Below the pieces are notes generated by a model, which did not search any database, was not told the DNA's origin, and worked only from the letters and a program-made list of their open reading frames with translations. Below are positions 2,263-10,503 of a stretch of 11,852 bases of DNA, one piece after another. Origin of the DNA: Actinomycetes bacterium (GTDB lineage Bacteria; Actinomycetota; Acidimicrobiia; Acidimicrobiales; Microtrichaceae). The translations under genes were made by a program, and so were the position numbers. Positions within the stretch are counted from its first letter, which is position 1; every line of letters starts with the position of its first letter. The stretch spans positions 1 through 11,852 of the forward strand of contig JAEZAI010000568.1 in the NCBI GenBank assembly GCA_023427825.1, given 5' to 3'.

Positions 2263-2532
2263 ATGGGTCGTCCAGCGAAGTACCCGACCGAGTTCCGTCG
2301 GGAGGCCGTTGAGCTCGTTCGTAGCTCGGGACGACCGGTTGCGGAGGTGGCCCGGTCGCTCGATATCGCCGAGGACCGAGAGGCCCGCGAACGCGACGCT
2401 GCGCCCGACGCGTTGAGCGAGTCCGAACGCGAGGAGCTGAAGCGTCTTCGCAAGGAGAACGCCCAGCAGCGCCTGGACATGGAGATCCTGCGGAAGGCCG
2501 CAGCGTTTTTCGCCAGGGAGACGAACCGGTGA
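2263..2532 (+). CDS. IS3-family transposase OrfA (shortened HTH)
   Basis: This 89-aa protein is the DNA-binding OrfA of the IS3 element. It starts MGRPAKYPTEFRREAVELV, continues into the first HTH helices (PVAEVARSLDIAE, 25-37), and ends in a leucine-zipper-like helix (ELKRLRKENAQQRLDMEILR, 58-77) followed by KAAAFFARETNR. Relatives normally have a recognition-helix stretch of the type 'STLxNWVK' after 'DIAE'. Here the sequence runs straight from DIAE into DREARERD, so about eight to ten codons seem to be missing in frame. OrfA proteins are usually 95-105 aa. AGGAGGGAGG at 2249-2258 serves as ribosome binding site. The stop overlaps the orfB start. DNA binding, and so transposition, may be impaired. 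Confidence 0.85.
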   Translation: MGRPAKYPTEFRREAVELVRSSGRPVAEVARSLDIAEDREARERDAAPDALSESEREELKRLRKENAQQRLDMEILRKAAAFFARETNR

Positions 2533-3401
2533 CCGGCTTCCGGTTCGTCGACGAGCACCAAGCCGAGTACCGCATCGCTGATCTGTGCCGTGTCGCCGGG
2601 GTGTCCCGGTCGGGCTTCTACGCCTGGTCGACCCGCGAGCCGTCACCTCGAGCGGTCGCGAACGCCGAGCTGCTCACCGAGATCCGTGCGATCCACACGA
2701 CGTCTCGCGGAACCTACGGGGCGCCACGCGTGTGCGGGCAACTGCGCCGCAACGGCATCCACGTGTCGCGGCATCGTGTCGCTCGCCTCATGGCAGCCAA
2801 CGGGCTCGTCGGCGTGCACGGTCGACGCCGCTGGCGGCGCGGCACCCACCCCGAGATGGTCACCTCGCAGGACCTGCTGCAACGCGACTTCACCGCCCCA
2901 GCCTCCGATCTGCGCTGGGTCGCCGACATCAGCGAGTTCCGCTGCTGCGACGGCAAGCTCTACCTCGCCGGCATCATGGACCTCCACGACAAGACCGTCG
3001 TCGGCTGGTCGATGAGCGAACGCCAGACCACCGACCTCGTCGTCGCCGCACTCGTCATGGCCCTCGGCCGACGTGAACCGTCCGACGAGCTGCTGCACCA
3101 CGCCGATCACGGCTGCCAATACACCTCGGTCGAGTTCACCAACCGGCTCGCGGACTGGGGACTCCGAGCGAGCCACGGATCCGTCGGCGACTGCTTCGAC
3201 AACGCCGCGATGGAATCGTTCTGGGCGACGCTCAAGCGGGAGATCCGCCACCTCCACGGAGCGTGGGAGGACCTCACCCGATCCCAGCTACGCACGATCC
3301 TCTTCGACTACATCGAGGTCTTCTACAACCGCTCACGTCACCAGCAGCGCCTCGGAGACCGCACCCCCGCCGAGACCTACGCTGCGACCCGAGCAGCCTG
3401 A
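2529..3401 (+). CDS. IS3-family transposase OrfB (DDE integrase, rve fold)
   Basis: This 290-aa protein is the catalytic subunit that cuts and joins the element ends. It has the usual N-terminal HTH_21-like region (SRGTYGAPRVCGQLRRNG, 59-76) and an RNase H-like core. The DDE triad is visible at D133 (WVADISEF), D193 (HHADHGCQYTS) and E229 (DNAAMESFWATLK), with the YNRSRHQQRLGDRTPAE tail typical of the family. Length is normal. The frame is -1 relative to orfA, and the GTG start at 2529 overlaps the orfA TGA (GTGA). It could therefore be made by translational coupling or by a -1 frameshift, for instance on the T5 run at 2506-2510. OrfB appears intact even though OrfA is shortened. Confidence 0.95.
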   Translation: MTGFRFVDEHQAEYRIADLCRVAGVSRSGFYAWSTREPSPRAVANAELLTEIRAIHTTSRGTYGAPRVCGQLRRNGIHVSRHRVARLMAANGLVGVHGRRRWRRGTHPEMVTSQDLLQRDFTAPASDLRWVADISEFRCCDGKLYLAGIMDLHDKTVVGWSMSERQTTDLVVAALVMALGRREPSDELLHHADHGCQYTSVEFTNRLADWGLRASHGSVGDCFDNAAMESFWATLKREIRHLHGAWEDLTRSQLRTILFDYIEVFYNRSRHQQRLGDRTPAETYAATRAA

Positions 3402-3822: not shown

Positions 3823-3914
3823 CTCCTGTCGGTCATAGCGAACGGCACGTTCCCGCCGAACCGGCTTGCCCGACTGCGATTGTGCGCGACGCGTTCGCAG
3901 CCACAGTCATCGGC

Positions 3915-4841
3915 ATGAGCGAGCCGTCACCCCGTCCAGGCTCTGGGTCTTTACCCATGTCCAAGGCCGCTGTGGCTCAGCGGGTGGATTCGGAACAAGA
4001 TGGCGGTGTGGAGCTGAGTCAGGACCTGCTTGCACGCGCCCCAGAGGCATTCGCTTCAGAGGCAGCACTCATGTGGCCGCTCGCGGCCGGCGCGTCAGCA
4101 CTCGGGCCGGCCGACGGCCGAGACGCCGCTGAACGGATCTCGTTCTTCGAGGTCGCCGCTGCCGAGGGCGTGCCCGACATGTTGATCGTCGAGTTCGACC
4201 AGGACGCAATCCAGCGCCGCGTTGCAGCGGGCCTCGACGCTGTCGTCGCAACCACTACGGCCCGGGCCCTATGGGCGCTCACGGATCGAGCGCTCACTGT
4301 CGACGAACTTGCTGAGATTCTCACGATGACTCCTGCGCACGTGCGACGGGGCATCCTCCCCCAGTTGGCCGACGCTGGCCTCGCCGACCGCGATGTCGAC
4401 GGGCGCTGGGCTGGGGCAGACGGTGTGGCGCCGCTGGTCCGCTCGGTCGTGGCCGTCGAAGCGAAGCTGAGCGACTGGCGAGGTGGTTTCAAGCAGGCGC
4501 GCCGCTACACCCGATTCGCGAACCAGACCTACATGGCGCTCGACGCCCGACGTGCACGGCCCGCTCGGCGCTACGCCGGCCACATGGCTGAAGCGGGCGT
4601 GGGTCTTGCGACCGTCGATGCTTCCGACGGCCGTGTTCACGTCCACCGCAGAGCCCGCTGGCGGAAGCCGGCGGTGCGATGGGAGTTCTTCCTCATCGGC
4701 GAACGCGTGTGGGAACGAACCCTGGCCGGCACACGAAGCGGGCCCACGTTCGACGTGTTCGGCCGTCGGCCAGACCCGACCCCCGACACCGCAGACACCT
4801 CGACGTGTGTCGTGGCAGGTCACGAGTTCGCCGCTATGTGA
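3915..4841 (+). CDS. Predicted RecB-like PD-(D/E)xK nuclease-fold protein with inserted winged helix
   Basis: No gene name is recognised. From the ATG at 3915 the product has 308 aa; a GTG at 3882 would add 11 residues and ATG 3957 would remove 14. Numbering from the GTG at 3882, the sequence shows FFEVAAAEGVPDMLIVEFD (88-106, candidate 'PD' acidic residue D99), a winged-helix segment LTVDELAEILTMTPAHVRRG (about 138-157) with DAGLADRD as wing, then VVAVEAKLSDWRGGFKQARRY (189-209). The last block gives the ExK pair E193/K195 and a QxxxY motif (Q205-Y209) as in RecB-type nucleases. A C-terminal region (ARWRKPAVRWEFFLIGERVW, about 258-277) follows. The arrangement suggests a nuclease fold whose D and ExK strands are separated by the winged helix. 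It may cleave DNA or only bind it. Its 3' end overlaps the convergent barrel gene by 8 bp. The fold call is moderately sure, the function unknown. Confidence 0.75.
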   Translation: MSEPSPRPGSGSLPMSKAAVAQRVDSEQDGGVELSQDLLARAPEAFASEAALMWPLAAGASALGPADGRDAAERISFFEVAAAEGVPDMLIVEFDQDAIQRRVAAGLDAVVATTTARALWALTDRALTVDELAEILTMTPAHVRRGILPQLADAGLADRDVDGRWAGADGVAPLVRSVVAVEAKLSDWRGGFKQARRYTRFANQTYMALDARRARPARRYAGHMAEAGVGLATVDASDGRVHVHRRARWRKPAVRWEFFLIGERVWERTLAGTRSGPTFDVFGRRPDPTPDTADTSTCVVAGHEFAAM

Positions 4842-6204
4842 GCACCGACGACCAGGTGTCGAGGTGGTGCGGGACATCGTCACCCGTCGGTTTCACCGGG
4901 GCGGGCAGCGCGGCGATGAGATGACGAGCCGCTCGAACCGTCCTGCGGGCGTTCCGCCGGGAATCACCGGGGGCGACCGCCGCGGTGAGCGCCGCTGCAG
5001 AGTGCACGTAGTGGTAGCCGACAAGGTTGAGCTTCCAGTTCGGCGGCGGGTTCAGGTCGGGTTGCAGCGCCGTACAGAAGGTGCACCCACACGAGGTGTA
5101 GTTCGACTGTCCGACGAGCTGTGCGTGCGTCGGCTGCTCGATCGTGTGGATGAACGGTGTCGAGAAGTAGCGCTTCTTCGGGACCGCCTTCGGTTGGCCA
5201 GGAGGCGATTTGATGATGCGGACGGCGCCAAAGTGGCGGTCCGAGATCGAGGTCGCCGTGCCGAACCCGTTCGCTCCGAGAGCGAGCGCCACCCATCCCG
5301 TCAGATCGCTGTTGGGGAGCACCAGCACCTTGTCCTCATCGGCGCACACGGCGACCAGTTCCTTGTATCCGTCGAGGACCTGGCGATCGTTCAGCTGCCC
5401 GTAGGTGGGTTCAACGATGGGCCAGTGGACCCGGACGAACCAGTTTGGCTCGTGGCTGTCGACGATCTCCTCGAGGAGCTGGTCCCGGAGTGCGCTCGTC
5501 GTCAGCCACTGGCGGGCGACGGTGATGTTGACGAACATCGGGGCGTCACCGACGATCGATCGGGCGAGTGCCACGTGGTCCATCGTTGCCTTCAGCGACG
5601 CGGCTGCCGTCGCAGCGTCGAGCGTTCCGGTAGGCGTCAACAAGACCGTGGCACCACAGCGAACCTGTTCAGCGAGGCGGCGTGTCGTCCAAGCAGCGTC
5701 GGGCGTCGATGGAAGCGGCAGCACCAGGTGCGGCCAGTGTTTCATTGCCGTGTCGCTGACGTCGTTGAAGTGCTCCTTGTGAAGGTGGACCTCCGGGTCG
5801 ATGAACCTGATCGCTGTGTTCGGGAACTTCGAGACGAACGACCGCACCGACCCCCCTCCCTGTCGGCAAGGAACGATCAGTCCGACCCCGCACCGACCCG
5901 CGGCCTGGGCGCGTGATTCACCGACGACACGGTTGAGCCCGTTCGCGTATTGGTGACTCTTGTGCACGAAGATCGTCTTGAGATCGCCTGAGAGGAACGC
6001 GGCGAGCTCGGCGCTGCTTCGCGCGTTCGCTTCGAGCGCCTCGAAGTCCGGGTCGCCGGTGGGATGCTCCGGCACATCCAGTGACCGTGTCGTGTCACCA
6101 GAGAAATCCGCGTCGGTTCCTTCCGGCGTGTCGTCGACGTCGTCGAGATCGGCGCCGCCGTCTACCTCATGGCGGTCGGGCGCTGCGTCATCGTCGGTTG
6201 TCAT
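4834..6204 (-). CDS. Unknown protein: acidic N-tail plus TIM-barrel-like domain with TGT-like CxCxxC...H motif
   Basis: This 456-aa soluble protein is second in an operon behind a kinase gene; its ATG at 6204 follows the kinase stop by 15 bp, with GAGAGGA as ribosome binding site. Residues 1-50 are acidic and disordered-looking (DDVDDTPEGTDADFSGDTTR). Residues 75-330 alternate strands and helices as in a beta/alpha barrel: VGLIVPC, AIRFIDPEVHL, HLVLPLP, ATVLLTPTGT, MFVNITVAR, NWFVRVHWPI, KVLVLPNSD, then GANGFGTATS. At 372-377 a CGCTFC motif is followed by H398 and H401. That spacing resembles the zinc site (CxCxxC, then His about 25 residues later) at the end of the tRNA-guanine transglycosylase barrel. 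The TGT nucleophile Asp (in 'FDC') would align with FGT here, so ordinary base exchange is unlikely. Barrel fold: fair confidence. TGT kinship: tentative. Confidence 0.8.
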   Translation of the reverse strand: MTTDDDAAPDRHEVDGGADLDDVDDTPEGTDADFSGDTTRSLDVPEHPTGDPDFEALEANARSSAELAAFLSGDLKTIFVHKSHQYANGLNRVVGESRAQAAGRCGVGLIVPCRQGGGSVRSFVSKFPNTAIRFIDPEVHLHKEHFNDVSDTAMKHWPHLVLPLPSTPDAAWTTRRLAEQVRCGATVLLTPTGTLDAATAAASLKATMDHVALARSIVGDAPMFVNITVARQWLTTSALRDQLLEEIVDSHEPNWFVRVHWPIVEPTYGQLNDRQVLDGYKELVAVCADEDKVLVLPNSDLTGWVALALGANGFGTATSISDRHFGAVRIIKSPPGQPKAVPKKRYFSTPFIHTIEQPTHAQLVGQSNYTSCGCTFCTALQPDLNPPPNWKLNLVGYHYVHSAAALTAAVAPGDSRRNARRTVRAARHLIAALPAPVKPTGDDVPHHLDTWSSVLT

Positions 6205-6219
6205 CGGGTTCCTCTCCCG

Positions 6220-7089
6220 TCACTTGTGGAGTCGTTTCAGTGCGCTCGCAGAGCTGCCCCGCTTGTAGAGGGTTGGCTCAAGCCACTTCTCGATGAGGTC
6301 GCTGATTGCTGAAGGACAGGCCGAGCAGTCAGGTGGCCCGGCGCCCATCGCTGCCAGTGCTTCCGCCTCCGACATCTTCGACGCACGGTCGCCGTAGAAG
6401 GGGTGGCGTCGGTTGGCGAGAATGAACGACATCGTTCCGAGCGCCCACAGATCCGTGGCCTTCTTTGCCCGCTCGGGACGGACCTGCCCAGGAGACATGA
6501 ACGCCGGCGTTCCCATCAGTGCCGGGTACGCGGTCAAGGTGGCGCGGTCCTCAATACGGACCAGACCCAAGTCCAGCAAGACGGGTTGTGCCCACTCTCC
6601 ATCGCGCAGGGCGACGTTCTCGAACTTCACGTCGCGGTGGATGCTGTTGGCGCGGTGGAGGGCCTGGAGCCCCTCGAGCACCCCACGACAGAACTCGACC
6701 TGTTCGTCGCCGCTGGGCCAGCTGCCCGTCCGCAGCTTGGATGCGGCGTCGCCGCCTGGCACGAACTCGCAGCGGAAGAACGCTCGGTCCTCTCCGCCGA
6801 TGGATCGTCGACCGACATCGTTCAGCCGGACGACATGCGAAGAACTACACCTGCGTAGCCCCTCGGCTTCCTGCTCGAGACGGTCAGGCGGATACGCCGA
6901 CTGCAGGATGACCTTCACCGCTTCGACGTCACCGCCCGTGGAAATCTTCCAGGTTTCGCCGAATGCGCCGGACCCGAGATGGTCGGCGTCGTCGCACCCG
7001 AATGCGGATACCAACTGTGCTGAACTCAGCTGAGGCGACGCAGGTTCGTCTAAAGAAGTCAGGTCGAACCAGAACTCGACGACTTGCAT
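6220..7089 (-). CDS. Soluble Hanks-type Ser/Thr protein kinase
   Basis: This 289-aa protein has the main kinase motifs: glycine loop GSGAFG (39-44), VAIK-type lysine K59 in VEAVKVI, a likely C-helix Glu in RLEQEAEGL (E72/E74), catalytic loop HRDVKFEN (151-158), DLG at 173-175 replacing DFG, and activation-segment end GTPAFMSP (193-200) where the usual APE is changed to SPG. ATDLWALGTMSF (211-222) is the conserved F-helix region. Because K59, D153, N158 and D173 are all present, activity is expected. It has no transmembrane segment and no PASTA or other sensor domain. A 35-residue N-terminal extension precedes the kinase core. The start is ATG 7089, with purine-rich AAGGAAGGG upstream. It is transcribed with the barrel protein 15 bp downstream, which makes that protein a likely partner or substrate. 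This is inference. Confidence 0.92.
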   Translation of the reverse strand: MQVVEFWFDLTSLDEPASPQLSSAQLVSAFGCDDADHLGSGAFGETWKISTGGDVEAVKVILQSAYPPDRLEQEAEGLRRCSSSHVVRLNDVGRRSIGGEDRAFFRCEFVPGGDAASKLRTGSWPSGDEQVEFCRGVLEGLQALHRANSIHRDVKFENVALRDGEWAQPVLLDLGLVRIEDRATLTAYPALMGTPAFMSPGQVRPERAKKATDLWALGTMSFILANRRHPFYGDRASKMSEAEALAAMGAGPPDCSACPSAISDLIEKWLEPTLYKRGSSASALKRLHK

Positions 7090-9613: not shown

Positions 9614-10006
9614 TCAGGTCTGGCCCGTCCAGGCCCGTGCCTGCCGCTCAGCCGCTGCGACGACGGCATCAGGTTCGTCCCGTAGCGCCTCCCACGGCGT
9701 TCGGCCGGACAGCCGCGCGTTCGGAGAAGCCATCCAGCGCGCCGCGGCGAGACCGTCTGCGGCCTCCAACAGCGCAGCAAGCACCGGCTGGAGCTCGGAC
9801 GTGGCTGCCGTCGAGGCGCCGTCTGCTTGGAACTGAGCGGCTGGGTACACCCACCGTCTCGATCGGGTCTGCACCCCGAGCACCTGGCCACGGCGACGTC
9901 GCCGGTCGAGCTCGGCCAGGCTGACCCCCATCAGTTCGGCCGCCGGCCGAGTGGTCAGGCAAGGCCCGAGGATGTCGTTCCAAGGCGAGACCGCCGTCCG
10001 CTCCAT
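9614..10006 (-). CDS. MbcA/ParS/Xre-family antitoxin-like protein
   Basis: This 130-aa protein matches antitoxins that usually pair with RES-domain toxins. An N-terminal DNA-binding module reads LTTRPAAELMGVSLAELDRR (about 16-35), followed by a wing-like GQVLGVQTRSRRWVYPAAQF. The C-terminal toxin-binding domain (DUF2384-like) is recognised in LQPVLAALLEAADGLAAARW and then PNARLSGRTPWEALRDE, VVAAAERQARAW. The start is ATG 10006; an upstream in-frame GTG at 10024 is an alternative, and neither has a good ribosome binding site. It lies 34 bp behind an unknown minus-strand gene and is probably cotranscribed with it. No RES domain is visible on either side, so either the toxin is lost or the unknown gene is a different partner. 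Family call is good. Confidence 0.7.
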   Translation of the reverse strand: MERTAVSPWNDILGPCLTTRPAAELMGVSLAELDRRRRRGQVLGVQTRSRRWVYPAAQFQADGASTAATSELQPVLAALLEAADGLAAARWMASPNARLSGRTPWEALRDEPDAVVAAAERQARAWTGQT

Positions 10007-10035
10007 GGATTCAGGGTAGGACACTCGCCGTGGCG

Positions 10036-10053
10036 GGAGGTCAGCCGACCTCC
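10036..10053. repeat. 7-bp hairpin at the stop of the unknown gene before the antitoxin
   Basis: GGAGGTC-AGCC-GACCTCC forms a stem with a 4-nt loop that contains the TGA (10043-10041) of the upstream gene. Placed between the two minus-strand genes, it could attenuate readthrough or affect translation of the antitoxin. There is no T tract. Confidence 0.4.
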
Positions 10054-10503
10054 TCCGGGGCAACGAGCCATCTGTAGAACGGGTCGAGCAGACGGCGTGC
10101 CTCGACGACCCACTCCGCCCACGGCCCGTCGAGTGATGCCCCGTAGTCCGGCGGCTCATAGAACGTCGGAACGGCACTCCGCACACCTGTCCGTGCACGA
10201 TCCTTCTCCAGCCGGCGGGCAACCTCGCGCTGGGAGGGGAAGCGTCGGCAGCAACCCCAAGGCCAGCTCCAACGACTCGGTCGTCGCGTTCAGCGGAAAC
10301 GCTTCCGCCACCACTGCCGCTGTGCGAAGGTCGCGTCCGAACCTTCGTTGACCCCACGGGGTCGAGGTGTGGGCGAGGCTGTCCTGAAACGTGTGCGGCC
10401 GCACTCGGACGATCCGCACGACGCGGTCGGGGCGAGGGGGCACGTCGTCGACTTCTTGGTCGAGGCGATCAGCCAGTTTGGATGGCAAGCCTGTGCTTCC
10501 CAC
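10041..10503 (-). pseudogene. Unknown protein upstream of the antitoxin, with one frameshift
   Basis: No family is recognised. Two minus-strand frames join into a plausible 154-aa protein. The first, from about GTG 10503, reads KLADRLDQEVDDVPPRPDR, VRPHTFQDSLAHTSTPWG, RTAAVVAEAFPLNATTESLE, LALGLLPTLP. The second reads SQREVARRLEKDRARTG, VRSAVPTFYEPPDYGASL, DGPWAEWVVEARRLLDPFYR and ends at 10041. The join needs one C fewer in the CCCC run of the minus strand (GGGG at 10236-10239). Both halves keep GC3 bias, so the break is recent or is a sequencing error. It precedes the antitoxin gene by 34 bp, the usual distance for toxin-antitoxin partners, but no RES-toxin motifs are seen. The start is uncertain; sequence upstream of 10503 in this frame is antisense to the DUF4242 operon leader. 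Confidence 0.5.

Follow-up and report, generated by a model that had tools for sequence, protein, structure and literature searches.

We analysed an 11,852-nucleotide stretch of DNA (hereafter the window) from an Actinomycetes bacterium of the Microtrichaceae (GenBank assembly GCA_023427825.1, contig JAEZAI010000568.1), in which a Ser/Thr kinase gene, a gene for a putative zinc-motif barrel protein and a convergent third gene form a compact unit. The kinase gene (6220..7089, minus strand, 289 aa) comes first and the barrel gene, here also called the partner gene (4834..6204, minus strand, 456 aa), second; both are intact open reading frames (ORFs) and lie 15 bp apart (6205..6219, measured between longest ORFs), as an initial annotation of the window had described. 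At 21 other loci this spacing ranges from 80 bp apart to a 4-bp overlap, larger with over-long starts. The third gene (3957..4841, plus strand) converges on these two and overlaps the barrel gene tail-to-tail by 8 bp (4834..4841); its longest ORF runs from 3882, and the ATG at 3957 gives a better alignment fit. Overlapping tails of barrel and third gene were seen in 18 of 22 loci. The initial annotation had proposed a two-gene system and listed this nuclease-fold gene among its surroundings. The gene does adjoin the pair, but is no mere neighbour: the ORF at 3882-4841 belongs to the unit and is conserved to the same degree (22 of 23 loci plus 5 of 5 further ones), which replaces the pair with a trio.

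The window's kinase matched Pfam Pkinase (1.9e-30, residues 36-285; 106.6 bits versus a cut-off of 31.7) and is predicted to be essentially one soluble Hanks-type Ser/Thr kinase domain, bare of any membrane or sensor domain as had first been noted. Residues K59, E74, H151-R152-D153, K155, N158, D173 and G175 were unchanged in all 22 aligned kinases of the unit, such that the catalytic Lys, the alphaC Glu, the HRD Asp (D153, codon 6631..6633, minus strand), the Asn and the DxG Asp are kept throughout. The best PADLOC matches were PD-T4-6 (8.6e-34) and mad6 (7.7e-33), which we read as reflecting the generic kinase fold.

Evaluating the third protein revealed what looks like a winged helix-turn-helix (wHTH) domain inserted in a PD-(D/E)XK-like, or restriction-nuclease-like, protein. 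The wHTH-like segment sits between D99 of the PD motif (codon 4176..4178, plus strand) and the E193-x-K195, or ExK, motif (codons 4458..4466, plus strand), with E193 and K195 kept in 22 of 22 sequences and E60, E90 and D99 in all 21 that were long enough. The E, (P)D, ExK order of the PD-(D/E)XK superfamily is present in these kinase-type copies. Library searches gave weak matches to the wHTH part only; the nuclease part had no PDB or Pfam match above threshold and no credible PDB match, and its sole profile match was a weak one to HSDR_N (best E = 0.074, in 2 of 19 third proteins). A search of a 5.8-billion-protein collection, which scored only the 7997 candidates sharing most words, listed 17 relatives of this protein that were all unnamed or 'hypothetical'. 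The third-gene relatives P0029 and P0030 lie on contigs equal in length to those of the partner relatives P0005 and P0003, respectively, and are probably linked to them, and P0026 (448 aa, 92% identical to the window's protein, longest contig 21,477 bases) is a second very close copy. The third gene was present as a single copy in each of the 4 host genomes tested; that of Kineococcus is annotated as an Rrf2-type regulator, and its Arthrobacter FB24 counterpart is unlisted in the plasmid record.

Conservation and spread of the three-gene unit

A tblastn search of plasmids revealed two partner relatives, on plasmid 3 of Arthrobacter sp. FB24 and on pKRAD01 of Kineococcus radiotolerans, each with an annotated Ser/Thr kinase ahead and a convergent relative of window 3882-4841 behind. 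A scan with the alignment, which took a single genome from each of 84,980 species and used one peptide pattern, gave 20 loci, all with actinobacterial record names; by itself this does not show absence outside the Actinomycetota. Of 23 loci, the window among them, profile searches of all ORFs showed 22 with kinase, partner and convergent gene in the same order and orientation. The exception, in Nocardia cyriacigeorgica (L018), is a decayed locus with the partner gene, a weak third-gene remnant and no kinase, while L021 has a contig end near its third gene, which is incomplete there. Genome sampling yielded five more distinct loci with all three genes (L031, L032, L070, L109 and L110), bringing the total to 27 of 28 distinct loci with the genes in fixed order and orientation, a count that excludes L072 (a repeat of the Kineococcus unit with an identical third protein) and L030 (a repeat of L007). 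All loci other than the window were actinobacterial. One partial partner relative (P0013) is named as a Comamonadaceae metagenome-assembled genome.

A lack of conserved kinase-barrel linkage across genomes had been named beforehand as the point that would count against the pair, and the linkage was found to hold in fixed order at 27 of 28 loci; core metabolic operons had been named likewise, and none was seen around the pair, where most neighbour genes were only tallied. That the kinase adjoins the barrel so constantly fits the originally proposed pair, in which the kinase regulates the barrel as effector. Yet kinase and third gene are equally constant across the 28 loci, and distant barrels have a convergent gene and no kinase (see below), which makes a two-gene arrangement improbable.

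The unit is rare. Matches were found in 3 of 396 Actinomycetota (one being the seed genome), in 5 of 396 genomes of one order (two judged chance, one seed and one already known unit), in 3 of 397 of another (all already known) and in 4 of 297 of a third (one seed and one distant relative), or 12 kinase-type units in 1486 genome searches when seeds and repeats are counted and with samples that may overlap. Judging by their sequences, the weak genome-search matches L073 and L074 are due to chance, and at L122 the profile search gave no match. Scans of phages and of viral contigs, each with a few peptide patterns, found no copy.

Comparison of identity matrices across 21 loci revealed agreement among kinase, barrel and third protein (Mantel rho 0.77, 0.68 and 0.79; 0 of 1000 permutations as high), such that the three proteins diverge in step. 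The Arthrobacter gallicola copy (L019) shares 55% identity with the copy on the Kineococcus plasmid and only 30% with that of Arthrobacter FB24, a difference that points to horizontal transfer of the unit. A plasmid or conjugative-type setting was seen in 8 of 23 neighbourhoods (L001, L002, L020, L011, L016 and L022, with L008 and L015 via shared families). A large neighbour adjoining the unit is common to L003 (12397-15537, 1046 aa) and L004 (12574-16026, 1150 aa), and that of L003 had no Pfam match.

We found no description of this combination in Pfam, NCBIfam, PADLOC or open-licence full texts (supplements not covered), and no system in the three databases covers the kinase-barrel pair, in line with the first impression that no known system has such a partner. 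Two families that have no Pfam, NCBIfam or PADLOC model here form a constant unit with a kinase, and we regard it as a real, conserved and apparently undescribed module.

The zinc-motif barrel and its likeness to tRNA-guanine transglycosylases

Up to E = 1, nothing in Pfam, NCBIfam or PADLOC matched the partner protein, and among 32 of its relatives no Pfam family was matched by more than one member (best E 0.0085). Across 38 aligned partner sequences, Q180, G303, W304, G310 and F347 were present in all, and a CxCxxC...H stretch (5011..5091, minus strand) forms a putative zinc site, with C372, C374 and C377 in 35 of 38 and H398 in 37 of 38 (one gap) at varying His spacing. Three copies from Leifsonia and Microbacterium (L006, L009 and L014) have lost the cysteines and kept the His, with kinase and third gene present. 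Judged by eye, the strands of the alignment fit an eight-stranded barrel followed by the CxCxxC and then the His, which is the order in tRNA-guanine transglycosylase (TGT); canonical TGT (PF01702) has its CxCxxC...H after the last predicted strand, and so does the barrel. Of the early description as a TGT-like TIM barrel with a metal-type motif, the motif and the lack of a family model stand, and the TGT link holds at motif level only. Set by eye against the catalytic residues of TGT, D136 (36 of 38) is perhaps the first catalytic Asp, and where TGT has its nucleophile Asp, all 38 sequences have G, S or T.

Profile comparisons gave mixed results. The best local match set the barrel's GATVLLTP stretch against GADIMFAFDE of TGT. 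With hhalign, the barrel against three TGTs was not significant (P = 0.12), and against 32 bacterial TGTs (from 35 loci) P was 0.012 and 0.018. The local score against the 32 TGTs (26.2, own P 0.018) exceeded all 100 column-shuffled nulls (maximum 25.7), and the global alignment failed, with 93 of 100 nulls as high. Given a local score that beats its shuffles but has a weak P of its own, and a failing global alignment, TGT membership by profile was rejected. DpdA against TGT, run as a positive control, scored 25.5 and thus no better than the barrel, such that this test has little power. Barrel against DpdA gave 8 of 60 shuffles as high, using ten phage DpdAs and omitting L102, a phage without an annotated gene. 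CxCxxC was absent from all ten, unlike the barrel, which has it. A PDB search with the barrel profile returned chance matches only.

These resemblances raise the possibility of a Dpd-like restriction-modification system, in which the barrel would swap guanine for 7-deazaguanine in DNA and the third protein would restrict DNA left unmodified. The CxCxxC...H motif, the TGT-like strand order and an adjoining nuclease-like gene would suit such a system, but the host genomes do not. Full-length QueC was found in 0 of 20 (partial matches, covering 46-70 of 210 positions, occurred in 6 of 20; genome completeness was not stated) and canonical TGT in 6 of 20, whereas a sample of 60 Actinomycetota had it in 35 (above the cut-off in 34). 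Because of this, the hosts do not look like 7-deazaguanine makers as far as their gene content tells. Adding the G, S or T at the nucleophile position and the fact that none of the three genes is a dpd gene, Dpd-type chemistry is disfavoured for the unit, and we consider this explanation very improbable.

TGT genes are described in BREX-related capture (BRC) systems as well as in Dpd (PMC12839542). BRC, a predicted defence system with a TGT-family gene, is alike in this to the unit with its TGT-like barrel, and differs in its PglZ, HerA/FtsK, STAND and DUF4007 components (PMC12839542), none of which is part of the unit.

Distant barrel relatives and the enzyme in front

The kinase, initially taken as the barrel's fixed companion, is absent from all five distant partner relatives (L117, L118, L120, L121 and L123), whereas a convergent gene is present in 5 of 5. 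In genome G1387 (L117), an XRE-ImmA/IrrE metallopeptidase gene lies just upstream of the partner relative on the same strand, and on plasmid pAAG24-80 of Arthrobacter agilis (L118) an annotated ImmA/IrrE gene is followed by the partner relative and then the convergent gene. These two metallopeptidases are 38% identical to each other, and the latter has a weak PDB match to CapP (E 0.00019). The other three, two in genomes (L120 and L121) and one on a Tsukamurella plasmid (L123), likewise join the distant partner type to a convergent gene. The upstream XRE protein of L121 has a HEIGH motif and is ImmA/IrrE-like by eye, such that an ImmA/IrrE protein takes the kinase position in 2 of 5 relatives, with a third by eye only. 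No ImmA/IrrE-type gene was in view at L120 or L123, the latter having a TniQ-family gene upstream, and a sixth relative (L124) has the barrel with no third gene found. Plasmid or conjugative settings among these relatives are those of L118 and L123. The divergent neighbour at L120 (minus strand, 1-1359) looks, by eye, like a P-loop plus deaminase protein of AvcD type.

The convergent proteins of these loci fall into two kinds. For the 209-aa protein on the opposite strand of L117, hhalign gave an alignment to the third gene with probability 83 and P = 9e-6, a score reached by 0 of 100 shuffles. As a group, the proteins of L117, L120 and L121 matched it more clearly (probability 94.6, P = 7e-8, 0 of 60 nulls as high), while the L118 and L123 proteins are similar to one another (E 2e-10). 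The longest-lasting part of the module is the zinc-motif protein with its convergent neighbour, and the variable part is the protein-modifying enzyme in front. Because the kinase and the metallopeptidase that takes its place both act on protein, the swap hints at a neighbouring protein of the unit as their target.

ImmA/IrrE proteins control several small modules, among them ImmA-ImmR, IrrE-DdrO and CapP-CapH, and in ICEBs1 ImmA relieves ImmR. The two distant relatives with an XRE-ImmA/IrrE protein at the kinase position (and the third, by eye) resemble these modules. They differ in that no kinase-type unit, that of the window included, contains such a protease, and in that the barrel and its convergent partner are not among the parts of the known modules. 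This likeness bears on a rival explanation, by which the unit would serve plasmids and integrative conjugative elements as a switch for maintenance or regulation and have no part in defence, its wHTH protein being a repressor relieved by kinase or ImmA/IrrE protease. Besides the ImmA/IrrE proteins themselves, the plasmid and conjugative settings, the loss (by inspection) of the nuclease motif from the third gene in distant relatives and the Rrf2-type annotation of the Kineococcus copy all speak for a switch. However, all kinase-type copies keep E, D and ExK where the sequence reaches them, which a pure repressor would not need, no conjugative genes were identified in most of the 23 neighbourhoods (where most neighbour genes were only tallied), and no family of mobile-element genes goes with the unit in more than 4 of 23 loci. 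A purely regulatory switch is possible but, on balance, doubtful.

Proposed mechanism and genomic setting

Our best explanation, held tentatively, is that the unit is a mobile conflict-type module, so far of the Actinomycetota, made of a TGT-like barrel, a PD-(D/E)XK-like DNA-binding protein and an upstream protein-modifying enzyme. The barrel, in which no Asp stands at the TGT nucleophile position (by eye), would bind a signal, nucleic acid or nucleobase, that comes from an invading or competing element; the kinase, or the protease in its stead, would turn this into a covalent switch, the former phosphorylating and the latter cleaving either the barrel or the third protein; and the third protein would then act on DNA, as a nuclease wherever it has an intact motif and otherwise perhaps as a repressor or scaffold. 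The presence of the three genes, the constancy of their order, the conservation of catalytic motifs, horizontal spread and the existence of kinase-less distant relatives are observed. What we infer in this scheme is that the barrel is a sensor, which protein modifies which, that DNA is the target and that the host or the carrying element ends up protected. Read most simply, the switch would have the kinase or protease act on one of its two companion proteins, which is thereby freed or silenced. Since the nuclease motif is under strong constraint in kinase-type units, DNA cutting is a reasonable candidate for their effector step, and forms without the motif could presumably only bind. A role in conflict with phages or competing elements appears slightly more likely than pure regulation of an element because of the nuclease motif, the rarity and mobility of the unit and the few defence genes that neighbour it.

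Several observations weigh against this explanation, or against parts of it. The TGT relationship of the barrel is a resemblance in motif and strand order that is not statistically established and is only suggestive, and PF01702 was matched by 0 of 32 partner relatives up to E = 10. The window's kinase has G at APE-motif position 201 (codon 6487-6489), where the other 21 of 22 have E, and because of this replacement the window copy may be less active. By inspection, the ExK motif is lost in the convergent proteins of L117, L120 and L121, such that nuclease activity cannot be universal, and for the convergent genes of L118 and L123 no relationship to the third gene could be recognised (nulls scored as high in 3 of 60 and 2 of 60 cases). 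A phmmer search with the ImmA/IrrE proteins of L117 and L118 did not find the L121 gene. Comparing all neighbouring ORFs of at least 90 aa revealed no family common to more than 4 of 23 loci, which means that no fixed element or island carries the unit. An ApeA-like neighbour at L007, whose N-terminal domain is over the cut-off and HEPN domain under it, had no PADLOC match, and an enrichment of defence genes over control stretches was not demonstrated, such that the defence-island claim was rejected.

That comparison set 126 of 173 listed neighbour genes (21 loci) against 115 of 120 genes in 20 control stretches, placed by hand in four host genomes with no matching to island regions. At E up to 1e-20, the cassette side matched JetA, JetB, JetC, PDC-S01 and mad3 (among 25 of 30 models listed) and the control side had single-protein matches to mad3, PsyrT, DpdF, C3a193, PDC-M37B, DolB and mad8; at 1e-5, the cassette side, taken without a control, matched 107 models, of which 25 were listed. 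Individual defence-type neighbours were a Wadjet JetABC by L019, the ApeA-like gene by L007, an NB-ARC/TPR gene by L008 and PDC-S01 near L012. The phage-defence role that the initial annotation had suggested is thus not supported in the form given there, and an anti-phage function is plausible but unproven.

The unit is compact and mobile, has a lone effector-like gene encoded opposite the other two, with tails that overlap in 18 of 22 loci, and carries an intact nuclease motif. These traits also recall toxin-antitoxin pairs, with the PD-(D/E)XK protein as a toxic nuclease restrained by kinase and barrel. Three genes including an enzyme partner would be unusual for such a pair, however, and the distant loci that keep the barrel have lost the nuclease motif (by inspection), so that we think this unlikely. 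A bolder version of the conflict module would make it a new class of immune module, in which a TGT-derived barrel that no longer exchanges bases senses modified guanines or fragments of tRNA or DNA, and an interchangeable kinase or ImmA/IrrE protease signals to the convergent nuclease or repressor; we give this little credence at present. The 7-deazaguanine DNA of certain actinophages, those with ParB, DpdA and QueC genes, is one candidate signal for such a sensor. The actinophages Typha (L103), Sour (L105), Finch (L106) and Rinkes (L107) have a ParB-like gene near dpdA, with a QueC-like gene also in view in the last three, and 7-deazaguanine modification of DNA may, from these genes, occur among phages of such hosts.

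Hanks-type kinases like that of the unit are found in several known systems, namely PD-T4-6, MAD6 of MADS and PglW of BREX type 2. PD-T4-6 is a stand-alone kinase gene with anti-phage activity, whereas the kinase here is fixed among three genes and matches it generically; and unlike in the settings of PD-T4-6, MADS and PglW, its partners are two families without any model. BREX type 2 and MADS differ further in that PglZ, PglX, BrxC and the MADS genes are no part of the unit, and with no neighbour family in more than 4 of 23 loci neither PglZ, PglX nor MAD genes are a constant accompaniment. PglW combines kinase domains with a NERD nuclease (PMC12839542), an arrangement that the unit does not share.

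The unit, which is small, lends itself to tests with plasmid 3 of Arthrobacter sp. FB24 and pKRAD01 of Kineococcus radiotolerans, and its protease form to tests with A. agilis pAAG24-80. Were protection of the host or the carrying element to prove true, the barrel would be a new candidate sensor family for bacterial immunity.

The remainder of the window bears out the island of a toxin-immunity pair and insertion sequence elements that had been described around the unit. An Rhs-core protein (98-2128) ends in a C-terminal Tox-HNH-HHH nuclease domain, and the gene adjoining it has a weak SUKH match (SMI1_KNR4, E = 0.0016, below cut-off), the two being a polymorphic toxin and, by these matches, its probable immunity partner. 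An IS3-family element in two overlapping frames (2263-3401) and an excisionase-type helix-turn-helix gene also lie in this neighbourhood. Promoter/terminator and RNA-family scans gave no useful result. ARAGORN called a tRNA-Cys (gca) at 9813-9897, within a long minus-strand frame (9614-10357) that is antitoxin-like by eye, and the call is probably false.

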